Under the pieces are notes generated by a model. It made no database searches and was not told the origin of the DNA. It saw only the letters and a program-made list of their open reading frames with translations. Shown here in pieces: positions 2,506 through 63,865 of a DNA stretch of 64,000 nt. Made by a program: the position numbers and the translations under genes. The stretch lies in the NCBI RefSeq assembly GCF_021233435.1, contig NZ_CP089468.1, positions 2,776,597 to 2,840,596 of the forward strand, read 5' to 3'. The DNA is from Halobacterium noricense. Its GTDB lineage: Archaea; Halobacteriota; Halobacteria; Halobacteriales; Halobacteriaceae. Each line of letters opens with the position of its first letter. Within the stretch, counting starts at the first letter, position 1.

Positions 2506-3459
2506 TCACTCCTTCCGAGCAACCTCGTGTCTGCCAAACCCGTACCGCAGCCGGTTCGCCAGCCGCCGCGCGAACCGCCCCTCGCCGTCACCGCTGGCAC
2601 GAGAGTCGAAGCGCTCGGCGAGCGCCTGGTAGATAATCGGGAGCGGAACCTCCTGTTCGAGGCTCTCCTGAACCGTCCACGTGCCCGTGGAGCCGCCGGC
2701 GACGTGGTCGGCGACGTCACCGAGGTCGTTGCCCTCCTCGCGGAACGCTTCCTCGCAGAGTTCGAGCAGCCACGAGCGGATGACGGCACCGTTGTTCCAC
2801 GTGTTCGCGACGGCCTCGAGGTCGAGGTCGTAGCGACCCTCGTGGAGGAGTTCGAAGCCCTCGCCGTACGCCTGCATGAGCGCGTATTCGACGCCGTTGT
2901 GGACCATCTTCACGTAGTGGCCCGAGCCCGCAGGTCCCATGCGGTCGTGGCCGTCCGGGCCGGTCGCAACCGCGTCGAAGACGGGCACGAGCTCGTCGTA
3001 CGCCCACTCGGGGCCGCCGACCATCAGCGAGAAGCCAAGTTCCGCGCCAGCGGGGCCGCCGGAGGTGCCGCAGTCGAGGTACGCGAACTCGTATTCGCCG
3101 GCGCGCCGCGTGGAGTCCTCGAAGTGGCTGTTGCCGCCGTCCACGACCACGTCGCCTCGCGGGCGTTGCCCGCTCGCTGATTCGGTCGAGCGTGGCTCGA
3201 CCCCGTCGAGTTCGGGCGCGAGTTCGTCGAGCGCGGCGTCGACGGGGTCGCCCGCGGGGACCATCAGCCAGATGCGCTTCTCGTCGCCGAGTTCCGCCGC
3301 GAGGTCGGGAATCGATTCTGCGGGCGTCGCGCCGGCGTCCGCCGCACTCGTGCGGGCGTCCGCGTCGATGTCGAACGCGACCACGTCGTGGCCCGCGTCC
3401 AGACACCGGTCGACGACGATGCGTCCCATGCGGCCGAGACCGATAACGCCGAGTTCCAT
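2506..3459 (-). CDS. gndA: 6-phosphogluconate dehydrogenase, NAD(P)-dependent, decarboxylating
   Basis: Converts 6-phosphogluconate to ribulose 5-phosphate, the haloarchaeal route to pentoses. 317 residues from ATG 3459; an upstream start would add 23 basic residues. The N-terminal Rossmann fold has GLGRMG at 7-12; then come the DGGNSHFEDS and CGTSGG substrate-binding segments and the catalytic-lysine motif HYVKMVHNGVEY. This is the short single-chain form. Residues 86-101 (EPRSTESASGQRPRG) sit where the family normally runs straight from the helix after DELAPEL into DVVVDGGN. That segment is coded by two perfect three-base-loop palindromes (see findings). Confidence 0.93.
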   Translation of the reverse strand: MELGVIGLGRMGRIVVDRCLDAGHDVVAFDIDADARTSAADAGATPAESIPDLAAELGDEKRIWLMVPAGDPVDAALDELAPELDGVEPRSTESASGQRPRGDVVVDGGNSHFEDSTRRAGEYEFAYLDCGTSGGPAGAELGFSLMVGGPEWAYDELVPVFDAVATGPDGHDRMGPAGSGHYVKMVHNGVEYALMQAYGEGFELLHEGRYDLDLEAVANTWNNGAVIRSWLLELCEEAFREEGNDLGDVADHVAGGSTGTWTVQESLEQEVPLPIIYQALAERFDSRASGDGEGRFARRLANRLRYGFGRHEVARKE

Positions 3460-3892: not shown

Positions 3893-4738
3893 GTGTCGCT
3901 CGAAGGAACCACCGCCGAGCGCGCGGAACGGGCGAGCGAGGCCGGCGAGGAGGCCCGTTCGGCGCTGTTCGGTGACGACCTCGAAGTGACCTACGCGACC
4001 GCCGAGGAGCCGGTCGTGACCTGCGACCGCGTCGACATCCCGGAAGGCGAGATTACCGCGTTCGTCGGGCCGAACGGCAGCGGGAAGTCGACGCTGCTGA
4101 AGGCGCTGTCGAACCACCTCGACCGCGACGCGGGCGCGGTCGTCCTCGACGGCAAGGACATCCAGGAGTACGGACAGAAGGAGCTCGCCCGCGAACTCGG
4201 CTTGCTCTCCCAGGAGAACACCTCGCCGGGCTCCATCACCGTCGAGGACCTCGTCTACCACGGGCGCTACCCGCACCGCGGGTTCTTCGACGCCGTGACC
4301 GACGAGGACCGCGAGGCGGTCGAGCGCGCCATCGACCTCGCGGGCGTCGACCACCTCCGCGAGCGCGAGGTCGGCGGGCTCAGCGGCGGACAGAAGCAGC
4401 TCGCGTGGATTGCGATGGTGCTCGCCCAGGAGCCGGACGTGTTGCTGCTCGACGAGCCGACGACGTACCTCGACCTCCACCACCAGTTGCGCGTGATGGA
4501 GACTATCGAGCGGCTCAACGAGGAGGACGGCGTCACGGTCGGCGTGATCCTCCACGACATCGCGCAGGCGGCGCGCCGCGCGGACTACCTCGTCGCGCTC
4601 GAAGACGGCGCGGTCTACGACTGGGGGCCGCCGGTCGAGGTGCTGACCGAGGAACTGCTCTCGGACGTGTTCGGCGTGGACGCGGCCATTTCGTACACGC
4701 CCGACCCCCAAATCATCCCGAAGGGGTCGCTGGACTGA
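3893..4738 (+). CDS. ABC importer ATP-binding protein, FecE/BtuD type (iron-siderophore, haem or cobalamin)
   Basis: 281 residues from GTG 3893. It energises the permease encoded next. Walker A is GPNGSGKST (59-67), the signature LSGGQ (163-167), Walker B LLLDEP (about 185-190), followed by the H-loop HDIAQAARRADY. It begins with about 40 extra residues compared with typical FecE proteins. The operator at 3820-3833 suggests repression when iron is replete. The cognate lipoprotein lies at 6851-8002 on the other strand under the same kind of operator. The substrate class cannot be separated from sequence alone; iron chelate is favoured by the operators. Confidence 0.9.
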   Translation: MSLEGTTAERAERASEAGEEARSALFGDDLEVTYATAEEPVVTCDRVDIPEGEITAFVGPNGSGKSTLLKALSNHLDRDAGAVVLDGKDIQEYGQKELARELGLLSQENTSPGSITVEDLVYHGRYPHRGFFDAVTDEDREAVERAIDLAGVDHLREREVGGLSGGQKQLAWIAMVLAQEPDVLLLDEPTTYLDLHHQLRVMETIERLNEEDGVTVGVILHDIAQAARRADYLVALEDGAVYDWGPPVEVLTEELLSDVFGVDAAISYTPDPQIIPKGSLD

Positions 4739-4798
4739 GCGTGCCCCCGGTCGCCGGGTCCACCCGCCGGAGCGCGGAACGAAATCCTTTTGCGTCGT

Positions 4799-4812
4799 TT
4801 AGGCAACCCTAA
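4799..4812. promoter_or_regulatory. DtxR-like iron operator (site 2)
   Basis: TTAGGCAACCCTAA, extended by one more matching base on each side. It lies 76 bases before the permease ATG, in the gap after the ATPase gene, so the permease probably has its own iron-controlled promoter. Confidence 0.65.
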
Positions 4813-4888
4813 AGTAGATGGACACGACTCGGCCCCGCCCAGCCCCCCACGACGAACGACCCACTCGACGACGCACGCGGAGGGACGC

Positions 4889-6010
4889 ATGTCAGTAGGC
4901 GACTCCGAGCGCCTCCGCGACGAGATCGACCGCTCGCTGCTCGCCGTTGTCGCCGCGAGCCTCGTCGTCGTCGCGGCCGGCGCGGTCGTGCAGGTCCGGT
5001 ACGGCTCGTACCCGATGACCCTCGAACAGGCGCTGGCCGCGCTGTTCGACACCGACGTGCTCTACGACCCGCGCTGGCTGCTGAAATTCGTCGTCGGCGA
5101 GTCGCTGATGCGGACGATTACGGGCTTCCAGGGCGAACTCCCGAGCCTCGCGACGGACACGGTCGTCGTCTGGACCATCCGGCTGCCGCGCGTGGTCGCA
5201 GCCGTCGTCGTCGGCGCGAGCCTCGCGGTCTCGGGCGCTATCTTCCAGGCGGTCACGCGCAACGAACTCGCCAGCCCCTACATCCTCGGCGTGTCCTCCG
5301 GGGCCGGCCTCGCCATCCTCCTCACGCTCGTCGTGTTCAGCGGGCTCAACGCCTACCTCCCAATCATCGCCGCGCTCGGCGGCGCGGCCGCGTTCGTGCT
5401 CGTGTACGCCATCGCGTGGCAGAACGGCACCAGTCCCGTCCGGCTCGTGCTCGCGGGCGTCATCGTCAGCACCGTCTTCACCTCCCTCCAGCAGGGGATG
5501 TTCTACTTCGCGGAGGACCTCGGCGTCGTCCAGAGCGCCATCGCGTGGACGACGGGGTCGCTGACCGGCGTCGAGTGGCGGCACATCCGGCCCGCGCTCC
5601 CGTGGGCGGTCGGCGCGGTCGGGCTGTCGATGGTGAGCGCCCGCCAACTGAACGTGCTCGCGCTCGGCGAGCAGACCGCGCGCTCGCTGGGCATGGCCGT
5701 CGAACGCACGCGCTTCCTCCTGGCGGGCGTCGCCGTGCTCGCCGCCGCCGCGAGCATCGCCATCGCGGGCATCGTCGGCTTCGTCGGCCTGCTCATCCCG
5801 CACGTCGTCCGGAACATCGTCGGCAGCGACTACAAGCAGTTGATGGCGGGCTGCCTGTTCGCCGGCCCCGCGCTGATGGTCGCCGCGGACGTCGTCGCGC
5901 GGCTCGCGCTCCCCGTCGGCCAGGTGCCCGTCGGCATCGTCACCGGCGTCATCGGCGGCCCGTACTTCCTCTACCTGATGCGCCGCCAGCAGGACGTCGG
6001 CGAACTGTAG
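4889..6010 (+). CDS. FecCD-family ABC permease
   Basis: 373 residues from ATG 4889; an upstream extension to 4790 would run through the operator and was rejected. About nine or ten membrane helices. Family marks: RLPRVVAAVVVGASLAVSGAIFQ near residue 90, the NELASPYILGVSSGAGL segment, and the coupling region GIVGFVGLLIPHVVRNIVG near the C-terminus. It forms the membrane channel (as a homodimer in this family) for the chelate importer with the ATPase just upstream. Confidence 0.92.
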   Translation: MSVGDSERLRDEIDRSLLAVVAASLVVVAAGAVVQVRYGSYPMTLEQALAALFDTDVLYDPRWLLKFVVGESLMRTITGFQGELPSLATDTVVVWTIRLPRVVAAVVVGASLAVSGAIFQAVTRNELASPYILGVSSGAGLAILLTLVVFSGLNAYLPIIAALGGAAAFVLVYAIAWQNGTSPVRLVLAGVIVSTVFTSLQQGMFYFAEDLGVVQSAIAWTTGSLTGVEWRHIRPALPWAVGAVGLSMVSARQLNVLALGEQTARSLGMAVERTRFLLAGVAVLAAAASIAIAGIVGFVGLLIPHVVRNIVGSDYKQLMAGCLFAGPALMVAADVVARLALPVGQVPVGIVTGVIGGPYFLYLMRRQQDVGEL

Positions 6011-19461: not shown

Positions 19462-20775
19462 ATGCGAGTAATCCGGAACGCGACGCTGGCGGACGGGCGG
19501 GAGCGCGACATCCGAATCGAGGACGGCCGCATCGACGCGGTGGGCGAGGACCTCGACGGGGAGACGCTCGTCGACGCTACAGGGAAGCGCCTGCTGCCAG
19601 GGATGATAGACGCGCACGTGCACTTCCGCCAGCCCGGCTACGGGCACAAGGAGACGTGGGCGACGGGGTCGCGGAGCGCGGCGGCGGGCGGCGTCACCAC
19701 CGTCGTCGACCAGCCGAACACGGAGCCGCCGACGGTGACGGGCGCGGCGTTCGACGAGAAGGCCGAGTACGCCGCCGACTCGCTCGTGGATTGGGGTATC
19801 AACGGCGGCATCACGGCGGACTGGGACCCCGAAACGCTGTTCGACCGGCCGCTGTTCGCGCTCGGGGAGGTGTTCCTCGCGGACTCGACCGGAGACATGG
19901 GTATCGACGCGGACCTGTTCGCGGACGCGTGTCGGCGCGCGGCCGAGGAGGACGTGGTTGTCACCGTGCACGCCGAGGACGCCGACCTGTTCTCCGAGAG
20001 CGTGCTGCCAAGCAGCACGGACACAGCGAGCGGCGACGAGCCGCGAGCGGACGCGCACGACCGCGACGACGCGGACGCGTGGAGCGCGTACCGGACCGCC
20101 GAGGCCGAGGAGGCGGCCGTCGAGCGCGCGGTCGGTGTCGGCGGGAACGTCGGCGCGACGGTTCACGTCGCGCACACGTCGACGCCCGAGGGCGTTGACG
20201 CGGCGCGGGCGGGCGGCGCGACCTGCGAGGTGACGCCCCACCATCTCTTCCTCTCGCGCGAGGACCTCGACGAGTTGGGGACGTTCGGGCGGATGAACCC
20301 GCCGCTGCGCAGCGAGGAGCGCCGCGAGGCGCTGTTCGAGCGACTCGCGGACGGCGAGGTGGACGTCGTGGCGACCGACCACGCGCCCCACACGCGCGAC
20401 GAGAAGGACGCGAGCATCTGGGACGCGCCCTCCGGCGTGCCGGGCGTCGAGACCGCGCTCCCGCTGCTGCTCCAGACCGCCAGCGAGGGGCGACTGAGCT
20501 ACGAGCGCGTGCGGGACGTCACCGCCGCGAACCCCGCGGACATCTTCGACCTGCCCGACAAGGGGCGCATCGAAGCCGGACGGGATGCCGACCTCGTGCT
20601 CGTCGACCCGGACGCCTCCCAAGAAATTCGCGGCGACGACCTCCACTCGAAGTGCGGGTGGACGCCGTTCGAGGGAATGAGCGGCGTGTTCCCTGAGTTG
20701 ACGATGGTGCGCGGGACGGTCGTCTGGGACGGCGAGGGCTTCGGCGACCACGACGGCGAGAACGTCCGCGCCTGA
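19462..20775 (+). CDS. pyrC: Dihydroorotase
   Basis: 437 residues. Ring closure of carbamoyl-aspartate in pyrimidine synthesis. Amidohydrolase metal ligands are visible: DAHVHFRQPG, the mid-barrel VTVHAED and VHVAHTST histidines, and VATDHAPH. The class I type is indicated by GVTTVVDQPNTEPP. Residues about 180-205 (SSTDTASGDEPRADAHDRDD) form an acidic loop longer than I would expect. The carbamate kinase gene follows 47 bases later in the same direction. Confidence 0.93.
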   Translation: MRVIRNATLADGRERDIRIEDGRIDAVGEDLDGETLVDATGKRLLPGMIDAHVHFRQPGYGHKETWATGSRSAAAGGVTTVVDQPNTEPPTVTGAAFDEKAEYAADSLVDWGINGGITADWDPETLFDRPLFALGEVFLADSTGDMGIDADLFADACRRAAEEDVVVTVHAEDADLFSESVLPSSTDTASGDEPRADAHDRDDADAWSAYRTAEAEEAAVERAVGVGGNVGATVHVAHTSTPEGVDAARAGGATCEVTPHHLFLSREDLDELGTFGRMNPPLRSEERREALFERLADGEVDVVATDHAPHTRDEKDASIWDAPSGVPGVETALPLLLQTASEGRLSYERVRDVTAANPADIFDLPDKGRIEAGRDADLVLVDPDASQEIRGDDLHSKCGWTPFEGMSGVFPELTMVRGTVVWDGEGFGDHDGENVRA

Positions 20776-60497: not shown

Positions 60498-62312
60498 CTA
60501 CCGGAGCGCGTCGAGTGCGAACTCGAAGCCGGCGACCGGCACTTCGACGTCGTGGTCGACGACGACCGCAGGGTGAAGTTCCCCGATGACGCCCACGTCC
60601 TCGCCGTCGATGACGACGCTCGCGGCGCGGCCGTCGATGAACGAGGGGTGGTCGGTGGCGGGCGTTTCGAGGTCGACGTGGAACTCCTCGCAGAGCGCCG
60701 CGAGTCGCGCCTTGGCGTCCTCGTAGGAGGCGTCGTGGCGCGCGAGCACGGCGGCAACCGTCCGCCGTTCGGCCACACCCGTCTCCGTGGCGTCGTCGAC
60801 GTGTGCAGCGAACCCGATTTCCGCGAGGTCCTGGGGATACGACCGGTGCGTGTTGTTCTCCAGGACGGAGACCAGCGACGGCAGCGCCCACGTGCGGAGG
60901 ATAGTGAAGTCCTCGCTGTACGGCTCGTCGATGGTGGCGGGTTCGGCAGCACCCACCACGTCGTCCTCCGGCGCGATGCGCATGCGCTCGAAGTTGTCGG
61001 CCTCGTTGGTCATGTTGAAGTTCAGGAGGTCCTCGAAGCCGAGGCCGACGAGCGTCTCCCGGGCGGCAGCCTCCAGCCGCGAGGTCTCCGTGCGGCCGCC
61101 GATGGTGCCGACGTCGGGGTAGCGCGGCACGAGGTTGTTGAACCCGTACGCGCGCCCGATGTCGTCGACGACATCCACGGGGTGGAGCACGTCGACGCGG
61201 TACGGCGGAATCTCCACCTCGTAGGTGAGTTCGTCCCCGCCCTCCGGTTCGGCATCGAGACCCGCACGTTCGGCGAGGTCGACGACCTCGTCGGGTTCGA
61301 AGTCGATGCCGAGTAGCGTCTCGACGTGCTCGTGGGGGACCTGTTTGGTCTGGACCTCGAAGTCCGGGCGCACGAGCTCGGTGTCGGCGTACTCGACGGT
61401 AACGTCCTCGACGGTGGCACCACGGGCGTCGAGCGCGTAACAGATGATGGCGCACATCCGGTCGATGGTCCACTGGTCGGTGCCGGTGAGTTCGACGAAC
61501 AGTTCCCGGGAGTCCGTCGAGACCTCGGTGCGGCGACCGTTGATGACCGGCGGGAAACTGAACATCCCGATGTCGTCGTAGATGGCGGGGTAGCGGTCGT
61601 AGTTCTCGAGCAGGTCGGCGTACTGCTCGCCGGTCGGGTGTTCGGTGAGCACGTCCGCGGGCGTGCGTTCGGCGTCGTCGTCGAGCGGCACGAACGTGTC
61701 GCCGTCGGGCTCGATGCCGGTGTACGTGATGGAGCGCTCGCCCTGGCCGTCCTCGCCGCTGATGGACTCGCTCGCGGTTTCATCGGAAGAGCGAAGCTCT
61801 TCCGAGCCTCCGGTCGCTTCACTCCCGGAGACATCGCTCGCACGTTCGGTGGCGCTGCGCGCCACCTGCCCCTTCAGCATCGCGAGGTCGTGGATGCCGA
61901 TTGCGCCCTTCGCGCGCTTGCGTCCCATCGTCGCGTGGAGTTTCTCCTGCAGTTGGATGAGCGAGTCGAGGGCGTCCTCGTCGAGGTCGACGCCGCGAAC
62001 CACGGCACCCGTGACGCAGGGCCGCTCGTCGGGGACGTCCTCGACGTGGATGGTCCACTCGGCGCTGTTCGTGTCGGGGACGTAGACGCCCCGGGTGTCG
62101 CCGTAGTGGTAGCGCAGCGAGCGCGCGATGCCCTCCACGGAGAGGCGGTCGAGGCGGTCGGCCTCGAACTCGAGTTTGAACTCGCCCTCGTCGGTTTCGC
62201 CTTCGTACTCGATGCCGAGCCCGAAGAGGTCGTCTTTGAGGTCGTCGTCGCTCTTCTCGGTGTGGCCGGTGAGCGTGCGGAGTTCGTCGGGGTCGATGTC
62301 GACGACGGGCAT
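60498..62312 (-). CDS. pheT: Phenylalanyl-tRNA synthetase, beta subunit
   Basis: 604 residues, archaeal short beta chain. B3/4 editing region (PCVTGAVVRGVDLDEDALDSLIQLQEKLHATMGRKRAKGAIGIHDL in outline), B5 and the catalytic-like module (AYGFNNLVPRYPD, FEDLLNFNMTNEADNF, LRTWALPSLV). Residues 149-192 interrupt the block between HDLAMLKG and RSITYTGIEPDGDTFVPL with a Ser/Glu-rich segment coded by consecutive perfect palindromes. ATG overlaps the pheS stop by one base. Confidence 0.95.
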   Translation of the reverse strand: MPVVDIDPDELRTLTGHTEKSDDDLKDDLFGLGIEYEGETDEGEFKLEFEADRLDRLSVEGIARSLRYHYGDTRGVYVPDTNSAEWTIHVEDVPDERPCVTGAVVRGVDLDEDALDSLIQLQEKLHATMGRKRAKGAIGIHDLAMLKGQVARSATERASDVSGSEATGGSEELRSSDETASESISGEDGQGERSITYTGIEPDGDTFVPLDDDAERTPADVLTEHPTGEQYADLLENYDRYPAIYDDIGMFSFPPVINGRRTEVSTDSRELFVELTGTDQWTIDRMCAIICYALDARGATVEDVTVEYADTELVRPDFEVQTKQVPHEHVETLLGIDFEPDEVVDLAERAGLDAEPEGGDELTYEVEIPPYRVDVLHPVDVVDDIGRAYGFNNLVPRYPDVGTIGGRTETSRLEAAARETLVGLGFEDLLNFNMTNEADNFERMRIAPEDDVVGAAEPATIDEPYSEDFTILRTWALPSLVSVLENNTHRSYPQDLAEIGFAAHVDDATETGVAERRTVAAVLARHDASYEDAKARLAALCEEFHVDLETPATDHPSFIDGRAASVVIDGEDVGVIGELHPAVVVDHDVEVPVAGFEFALDALR

Positions 62313-63865
62313 CAGTACACCACCTCCGCGTCCCGCAGGAAGTCTAGGTCACACAGCGTCCCGTGGACGTCGCGGATGTCCTCGAAGCCGGTGACCAACA
62401 TCAGCAGGCGTTCGAGTGCGAGCCCCCACGCCATCACGTCGGCTTCGACGCCGAGCGGTTCGAGCATCTCGGGGCGGAAAATCCCGGAGTTCCCGATTTC
62501 GATGAGTTCCCCGGTCTCGGGGTGGCGACCGAACAGCTCGAACGACGGCTCCGTGTAGGGGTTGTACGTGGGCTTGAACTCGATGTCCGTGATGCCGAAC
62601 TGGCTGTAGAACTCCCGGAACGTCCCCATGAGGTCGCGGACGGAGAGGTCCTCGGCCATCACCCAGCCCTCGATTTGGAAGAACTCCAGGAGGTGGGTGG
62701 CGTCGAGGGTGTCGTTGCGGTAGGCCTTCTCGACACTGAAGTACCGCGCGGGCGCTTCCACGTCGCCGGCTCCGCCGGCTGCTCGGGGCGTCTTCGACGA
62801 CCCGGTATCCTCGCCGGCGACGCCGGAGAGGTAGCGGGCGGTGAGACTCGTCGTGTGCCCGCGAAGTGCGAGCGCACGCGCGAAGTCCTCGTCCCACGGC
62901 GAGTGGTAGCCGTCGCCGTCCGGTCCGACGCCCTCGCGGTGGGCGCGTTCGACGCGCTCGACGAGGTCCTCCGGTAACTCGTCGATTTTCTCGGGCTGCT
63001 CCAGCGCGAACCGGTCCCAGTGGTTGCGCGCGGGGTGGTCCTGGGGCATGAACAGGCAGTCGTTGATATAGAAGTCCGCGTCGACGTGCGGCCCCTCCAT
63101 CTCCTGGAAGCCCATCCCAACGAGCACGTCCTTGACGCGCTCGGCGGCCTGCCGGAGCACGTGGGTCTTCCCGGGCGTGTACTCCCCGGCGTCGGCCTCG
63201 ACGTTGTAGGCGGCGAACTCGGCGTCGCGCCACTCGCCGGACGCGAGCATGTCGGGGGTGAGTTGGCCGACTTCCTCGGCAGCTTCGACGCCCGTCATGA
63301 GTTCGGTGACGCCGGCCTCCGTCAGCAGCATCGACCGGACGGTGCGCTCGCGGACGGCGACGAGGTCGCGGCGCGCCAACTGGTCGAGCGCGTCGTCGTC
63401 CTCGACAGTCCCGCCCTCGGCCAGCGTTTCGAGTGCGGCGGCCTCCGCGTCCGCGCTGGGGTCGGCGTCGGGGTCCGCGGAGAGGTCGCCGCCGTCGATG
63501 CTCCCGTACCCCTTCCGAGCGTAGTTCGAGAGCGCGATGTCGACCTGTGGACCCTCCAGTCCGGATGCGCCGATAGCCTCGCCCATCGAGACAGGCTTGT
63601 CGTCGGCACCCGCGTCGAGGGCGGCCTCGTAGAGCCGGACTTCCGGCAGACCCTCCTCGGCGTACTCGCGGCCCTCCTCGGTGAGTTCGACATCCTCCTC
63701 GGTTTCTTCGATAACGTCCACGAGGCCGGCGTCCTCCAGTTCGAACGCCGCGCCAGTGACCGTCTCCGGCGGCCGCTCGATGTCGGCCGCGAGGTCGGCG
63801 ATGCGTCTCGGTTCGTCGGCGCTCGCCGCTTCGAGCACCGCGACCTGCTGTGGTGGCAGTTTCAT
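62312..63865 (-). CDS. pheS: Phenylalanyl-tRNA synthetase, alpha subunit
   Basis: 517 residues. N-terminal winged-helix DNA/tRNA-binding region (LPPQQVAVLEAASADEPRRIADLAAD), then the class II core: HPARNHWDRFAL, RGHTTSLTARYLSG, motif 2 ARYFSVEKAYRNDTLDATHL, GNSGIFRPEMLEPLGV and motif 3 AWGLALERLLMLVTGFEDIRD. A 20-residue insert (about 346-366, GEDTGSSKTPRAAGGAGD) lies directly before motif 2 and is coded by three-base-loop palindromes. A TATA-like GGATAAC about 24 bases upstream suggests a leaderless mRNA. Confidence 0.95.
   Translation of the reverse strand: MKLPPQQVAVLEAASADEPRRIADLAADIERPPETVTGAAFELEDAGLVDVIEETEEDVELTEEGREYAEEGLPEVRLYEAALDAGADDKPVSMGEAIGASGLEGPQVDIALSNYARKGYGSIDGGDLSADPDADPSADAEAAALETLAEGGTVEDDDALDQLARRDLVAVRERTVRSMLLTEAGVTELMTGVEAAEEVGQLTPDMLASGEWRDAEFAAYNVEADAGEYTPGKTHVLRQAAERVKDVLVGMGFQEMEGPHVDADFYINDCLFMPQDHPARNHWDRFALEQPEKIDELPEDLVERVERAHREGVGPDGDGYHSPWDEDFARALALRGHTTSLTARYLSGVAGEDTGSSKTPRAAGGAGDVEAPARYFSVEKAYRNDTLDATHLLEFFQIEGWVMAEDLSVRDLMGTFREFYSQFGITDIEFKPTYNPYTEPSFELFGRHPETGELIEIGNSGIFRPEMLEPLGVEADVMAWGLALERLLMLVTGFEDIRDVHGTLCDLDFLRDAEVVY

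Follow-up and report, generated by a model that had tools for sequence, protein, structure and literature searches.

A double-hairpin insertion in the gnd gene of Halobacterium noricense, very likely a copy of a dispersed coding repeat of Halobacteriales

Introduction

Rickettsia palindromic elements (RPE; Ogata et al. 2000, 2002; Wolbachia 2005; reviewed in PMC2229807 and PMC10969869) are palindromic repeats that lie in frame within unrelated housekeeping genes, are absent as insertions from the orthologues, and keep the same strand and reading frame across copies. The haloarchaeal elements described here show each of these properties. They differ from RPE in build and host: RPE are long stem-loops of about 105 to 150 bp from Alphaproteobacteria, a size and shape not met here, whereas the haloarchaeal units measure 45 to 60 bp, comprise two separate hairpins with mostly 3-nt loops, are GC-rich, extend across an order and have freely varying arms.

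In the mitochondria of Allomyces, double-hairpin elements are reported (Paquin, Laforest and Lang 2000, as cited by PMC5910586) to be short units of two adjacent hairpins with evidence of mobility. The haloarchaeal elements likewise have two adjacent hairpins whose variable stems keep their pairing; the Allomyces elements, however, are organellar, and they are not known to be fixed-frame coding elements. A further archaeal case is Methanocaldococcus jannaschii, in whose proteins palindromic repeats with coding potential are reported as fused segments (Suyama, Lathe and Bork 2005, as cited by PMC2229807 and PMC2996958). This likeness rests on no sequence comparison; the covariance models R1 and R2 presented below matched nothing outside Halobacteriales in the sampled genomes. 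Lastly, the REP/REPIN and RAYT system involves small genome-dispersed hairpins, some of them intragenic (PMC3733652), but REP are mostly extragenic and tagged with GTAG or CGTC, the GTAG type being tied to a transposase, and no such link was found for the haloarchaeal elements.

By analogy, we regard the haloarchaeal elements as resembling RPE in behavior and the fungal mitochondrial double-hairpin elements in shape, yet as a separate family. Because their size, two-hairpin build and host differ from those of RPE and no RAYT link was found, we claim no membership; no RPE sequences were compared. As to common descent with the mitochondrial elements, units of 45 to 60 bp with free arms leave no usable signal at this distance.

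Results

Two palindromes in gnd are halves of one element

We analyzed a stretch of 64,000 nucleotides from H. noricense (the window; contig NZ_CP089468.1, positions 2,776,597 to 2,840,596 of the forward strand). An earlier note, made from the sequence alone, had reported two palindromes with three-base loops inside gnd, GCGGGC-GTT-GCCCGC (3159 to 3173) and GGTCGAGC-GTG-GCTCGACC (3184 to 3202), eleven bases apart and encoding residues 86 to 101. Their sequences and positions proved exact and their location within gnd at these residues held, but the spacing did not: 10 bases separate them. The note had also missed that the first palindrome is the core of a longer outer pairing (3155 to 3177) with tandem G.A mismatches, that the two palindromes are halves of one repeat, and that this repeat belongs to a family found throughout the order, whose stems covary and whose reading frame is fixed. 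The features of the locus are as follows.

2506 to 3459, minus strand: gnd, decarboxylating 6-phosphogluconate dehydrogenase, 317 amino acids, host gene of the insert.
3155 to 3203, minus strand: the gnd copy of the double hairpin (family C), 45 bp net, its exact ends uncertain by a few bases.
3184 to 3202, minus strand: hairpin 1, a 3-nt loop (CAC on the gene strand) closed by perfect arms of 8 bp.
3178 to 3183, minus strand: inter-hairpin spacer GAATCA, aligned with GAACGA and variants in other copies.
3155 to 3177, minus strand: hairpin 2, GCGAG-CGGGC-AAC-GCCCG-CGAGG, inner stem perfect, plus tandem G.A mismatches.

The gnd product matches Pfam NAD_binding_2 (PF03446) and 6PGD (PF00393), and the products of 25 other copies of the gene in the family are 296 to 302 amino acids long. 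The element encodes D-GVEPRSTESASGQRPRG-D in frame, in phase 1, and scores 69.9 bits (E 3.1e-12) against model R2, of which it is itself one of four seeds; the GCGAG...CGAG frame of hairpin 2 is conserved in that model. Each palindrome alone is only moderately unusual. Palindromes with 6-base arms and 3-base loops are singly ordinary in this GC-rich window (37 observed versus 32 expected), while those with 8-base arms are enriched (11 versus 3.05). The pair stands above chance because both members lie within one derived 45-bp insertion and match a covariance model that has 62 matches in the genome.

Around gnd, the intergenic region adjoining its 3' end (2269 to 2502) is rich in haloarchaeal palindromic repeats and cannot be aligned with several close relatives. 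Two transporter genes (3893 to 6010) are collinear with G008 and G014 at about 88 to 90% and inverted at 72 to 79% in G017, G016, G015 and G010, as if replaced or flipped.

The gnd insertion is derived

An orthologue search in 26 genomes of the family returned gnd genes of 888 to 906 bp, compared with 951 bp here. All 25 aligned orthologues lack the 45 bp, with a single clean gap exactly at the palindromes, reading for example ...DELAPELDADDVVVDGGN... where this genome reads ...DELAPELDGVEPRSTESASGQRPRGDVVVDGGN...; this lineage therefore gained the segment by an in-frame insertion, which is a derived state. The earlier note's reading of an added loop, and its prediction of a gapped alignment exactly at these bases, thus held in 25 orthologues, and the outcome that would have refuted it, an ancestral and invariable segment, was not met. 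Its placement of the segment in a surface loop is supported by a predicted structure: in the AlphaFold model, residues 86 to 101 form a low-confidence coil between a helix (71 to 83) and a strand (104 to 107), with a mean pLDDT of 54 over residues 91 to 100 and values below 50 at 92 to 95.

An apparent extra 90 bp in gnd of Halococcus morrhuae was rejected as a poly-C assembly artifact at another position; the sequence there (L061, 10811 to 10890) contains a poly-C run and duplicated sequence.

Comparable insertions lie in three other genes of the window

We aligned the window with six syntenic relatives. Relative to these, gnd, a dihydroorotase-like gene, pheT and pheS carry insertions that all contain perfect 3-nt-loop hairpins. 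In one relative, G008, gene order was not conserved in the region first compared for synteny.

19994 to 20048, plus strand: family C element in the dihydroorotase-like gene (19462 to 20775), net 51 bp.
20001 to 20019 and 20026 to 20048, plus strand: hairpins of the dihydroorotase-like element.
61770 to 61868, minus strand: 99-bp pheT insertion, a 48-bp outer element with a 51-bp element nested inside.
62763 to 62809, minus strand: 45-bp pheS double hairpin with the family A framework (hp1-GAGCA-hp2-GACG).

The three products match Pfam Amidohydro_1 (dihydroorotase-like), tRNA_synthFbeta and B5 (PheT), and tRNA-synt_2d (PheS). The pheT site is empty in G008, G017 and G014 and holds the 48-bp outer element alone in G016, so that one insertion is nested within another. 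The cleanest insertion site of the window is that in pheS, which reads GAGGAC|GTG when empty (G008, G017 and G016) and GAGGAT...GAC|GTG here, with 45 bp added. The claim that pheT and pheS share the architecture seen in gnd was borne out, both having insertions missing from relatives, and comparison between related species showed presence/absence polymorphism for all four genes. The dihydroorotase-like element is present in G000 and G015 and not in G017, which trees place as the sister genome, and the pheT outer element is present in G000 and G016 and not in G017. Scattered presence, nested insertion and a dispersed framework together show that the elements have moved over evolutionary time.

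Many clean indels against relatives have a similar size and fold

We compared about 460 kb of this genome with four relatives (209 to 360 kb aligned in each, 87 to 93% mean identity). The commonest clean indel lengths were 54, 45, 48, 60, 51 and 57, and 37.5% of the indels folded better than their shuffles at z < -2, compared with 5% of random segments; many of the best-folding indels are two hairpins with 3-nt loops. Where the flanks are clearly coding, 35 of 36 clean indels have a length divisible by three (p about 5e-16 under random lengths). Looking for double hairpins in the sequence only was uninformative in this 67% GC genome (88 versus 60 expected), and since the background was too high, we relied on comparative indels and covariance models.

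Stems covary within a common framework

Elements of family A follow the framework hp1-RGGCA-hp2-GACG, and those of family C, which include the gnd and dihydroorotase-like copies, follow hp1-GAACGA-GCGAGCGGC..GCCGCGAGC. In both, two stems with mostly 3-nt loops are set in a conserved short framework, and the arms vary between copies yet stay complementary. Covariance models built from five copies (R1) and four copies (R2) gave 39 and 62 matches, respectively, in this genome at permissive thresholds, and all 13 genomes of the genus Halobacterium had matches, H. salinarum being the poorest. The H. salinarum genome (G012) is nearly without R2 elements, with one weak match compared with 12 to 62 in the others.

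In R1, 97.6% of the stem pairs were formed compared with 76.0% after shuffling, with covariation of 0.478 versus 0.144; the values for R2 were 98.8% versus 80.9% and 0.417 versus 0.089. Helix 1 of R2 was 100% paired in 29 distinct copies, and sliding the partner by 1 to 3 columns destroyed the covariation signal. Covariation was counted on alignments fitted to the models; as most of the high-scoring copies are ungapped, fitting can contribute little to it.

At the dihydroorotase-like site, hairpin 1 has the arms CGTGCTGC/GCAGCACG in G000 and CGTGCCGC/GCGGCACG in G015, a paired change; single unpaired changes after insertion also occur (L293 versus L261). The paired change, together with arms that differ between copies and are nevertheless near-perfect, as fold-back copying would produce, speaks for local mutation alone, in which template switching during replication builds palindromes in place without any mobile repeat. 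Against it, framework, spacer, ends, strand and frame are common to unrelated genes, which largely refutes this account, and two-hairpin units arrive whole at clean empty sites. We consider it very unlikely.

Many hairpins (L147, L149, L185, L208 and L225) are built as stem-GA-2 bp-NNN-2 bp-GA-stem, GAGCGTAGCGA being one of them. These are tandem G.A mismatches beneath a 3-nt loop, possibly a motif of DNA-hairpin stability.

The family spans Halobacteriales

Model R2 at E<=1e-3 matched 119 of 146 Halobacteriales genomes (42 of 56 genera), and R1 at E<=1e-4 matched 115 of 146 (47 of 56 genera). In a phylum sample of 148 genomes all matches fell within the order and none outside it, and ten non-haloarchaeal genomes gave no match at E<=1e-3 (best 0.006). 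A search of 12 loci against Rfam gave no match above the gathering score, the sole match (E 0.052) being under the cut-off. We found no description of these haloarchaeal elements in the open-access literature searched; most subscription journals lie outside it, and a report may exist. The double-hairpin repeats constitute a large and apparently undescribed family.

Intergenic arrays of several hairpins, about 190 to 300 nt long, were also seen in G066, G029 and G099 (L336 to L339, L341 to L344 and L345 to L349). They recur in the same genome with links that stay constant and stems that vary, they include family A or C units, and several end just before a TTTATAA-like box. Copies of equal score in G066, G029, G132 and G099 were rejected as a guide to the exact ends of the element, as they lie within longer intergenic hairpin arrays.

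One strand and frame are kept in unrelated housekeeping genes

The frame of each copy was assigned from codon-position GC in the flanks, not from annotation or proteomics. Strand and phase relative to the host gene were the same in 20 of 22 family A copies and in 38 of about 40 family C copies with coding flanks. Order-wide, all 17 clearly coding copies had the same strand and frame, as did most of the remainder. The encoded peptide is acidic (for example DSEARSASESASGDEPRAD) and alike across families (for example DREGRSPSGNRTQSDD in A and DSEARSASESASGEA in C). The kept frame is nearly free of stops, acidic and strongly hydrophilic, with a mean charge of about -1.2, whereas the other frames average +1.6 to +5, except for one family A reverse frame (-0.7, much less hydrophilic). 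Stops alone cannot account for the choice of frame, since few or none occur in the other frames either; the simplest explanation, which we infer, is selection on the peptide in an acidic proteome.

The coding copies sit in mutually unrelated housekeeping enzymes, namely, homologues of beta-CASP nuclease, aconitase, tryptophanase, HisC, Kae1-Bud32, ValRS, enolase, dihydroxy-acid dehydratase (IlvD), GatE, threonine synthase, TrpA, PurH, HutH and CarB. Several of these genes are normally essential, and the inserts are therefore tolerated. The ValRS host has two copies side by side: in G011, two different family A elements lie 12 bp apart in the valyl-tRNA synthetase gene (L260, 1501 to 1608).

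These results bear on two further explanations. The hairpins might be functional mRNA structures, regulatory or processing signals under positive selection in their host genes; stem covariation usually points to RNA structure, and intergenic regions hold multi-hairpin arrays. However, the host genes have unrelated functions, the element occurs patchily among close relatives, no match to an Rfam family reaches the cut-off, and reading frame and peptide are conserved, so that we rate this explanation very unlikely as well. Alternatively, the element might be spliced from the mRNA or bypassed by the ribosome and never appear in protein, as with mitochondrial byps. Compact hairpin inserts in conserved genes do resemble byp elements, but lengths in multiples of three, a fixed frame and an acidic peptide nearly without stops are features that bypassed inserts do not need, and we rate this possibility extremely unlikely.

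The mobilizing enzyme is not identified

No mobilizing enzyme was found for the double-hairpin elements. They could be REP/REPIN-like, with an IS200/IS605 or RAYT (Y1 HUH) transposase as the mobilizer; single-stranded hairpins are the type of substrate such enzymes use, and G000 has 6 Y1_Tnp matches. Against this, G007, G009, G010, G011, G015 and G016 have no Y1_Tnp match despite 12 to 38 R2 matches, and G012 has 2 Y1 matches but one R2 match. With Y1_Tnp absent from 6 of 13 element-carrying genomes, an IS200/RAYT mobilizer is not supported, and we think this explanation unlikely. In comparison with MITEs, which have terminal inverted repeats and a clear target-site duplication, each hairpin here pairs internally and not end to end, and a duplication of 2 to 3 nt would fit several sites only, with no consistent duplication proven. 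At most sites the boundaries can be placed only to within a few bases.

Discussion

We conclude that the gnd segment is very likely one copy of a double-hairpin repeat that is short, dispersed and protein-coding and that moves both within haloarchaeal genomes and between them. The data show a framework common to dozens of copies in this genome and to copies across Halobacteriales, as well as covarying stems, a single strand and frame, coding lengths in multiples of three, and nested and scattered presence and absence. That the element is a non-autonomous selfish element is inferred; no transposition was observed. Two copies are shared with a non-sister species (the dihydroorotase-like one with G015 and the pheT outer one with G016), so that insertion must have recurred, or copies been lost precisely, or short tracts recombined, alternatives that we cannot tell apart.

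As to mechanism, the mobile repeat would probably pass through a single-stranded DNA form folded into two hairpins, 3-nt loops being suited to hairpins of DNA, and be inserted by an unidentified host or mobile-element enzyme. The tolerance of copies in housekeeping genes may rest on the kept frame, which would encode a short, hydrophilic, acidic and probably disordered loop that suits a halophilic protein, and insertions in other frames or strands, mostly encoding Arg-rich or less hydrophilic peptides, would be removed by selection. That the arms stay complementary while diverging may reflect fold-back copying (quasipalindrome correction), to which the paired change at the dihydroorotase-like site would point, or, alternatively, a requirement for hairpins during mobility. 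The intergenic multi-hairpin arrays (about 190 to 300 nt) are perhaps a reservoir of coding copies, which is a guess.

A bolder reading can be put forward, which we hold only tentatively and, taken jointly in all its parts, as less likely than not. These would be order-wide selfish coding elements that inherit a two-hairpin fold and a short framework rather than a sequence; their arms would be rewritten by fold-back copying, and they would move as single-stranded DNA by an undescribed, IS200-independent route; and they would continually supply housekeeping proteins with acidic disordered loops, with precise loss possible.

Most descriptions of protein-coding palindromes come from Rickettsia and Wolbachia, with a single report from a methanogen; here they occur throughout an archaeal order, with many copies to a genome, and in housekeeping genes that include those for both subunits of one tRNA synthetase. 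The scarcity of elements in H. salinarum may explain why the family went unnoticed in the model species. For annotators and phylogeneticists there is a warning, in that such inserts of 15 to 20 residues are poor shared characters. With the genetics available for Haloferax and Halobacterium, the elements offer a tractable system in which to ask how selfish DNA creates protein segments and why one frame is kept, how diverging arms stay complementary, and which enzyme moves the hairpins.
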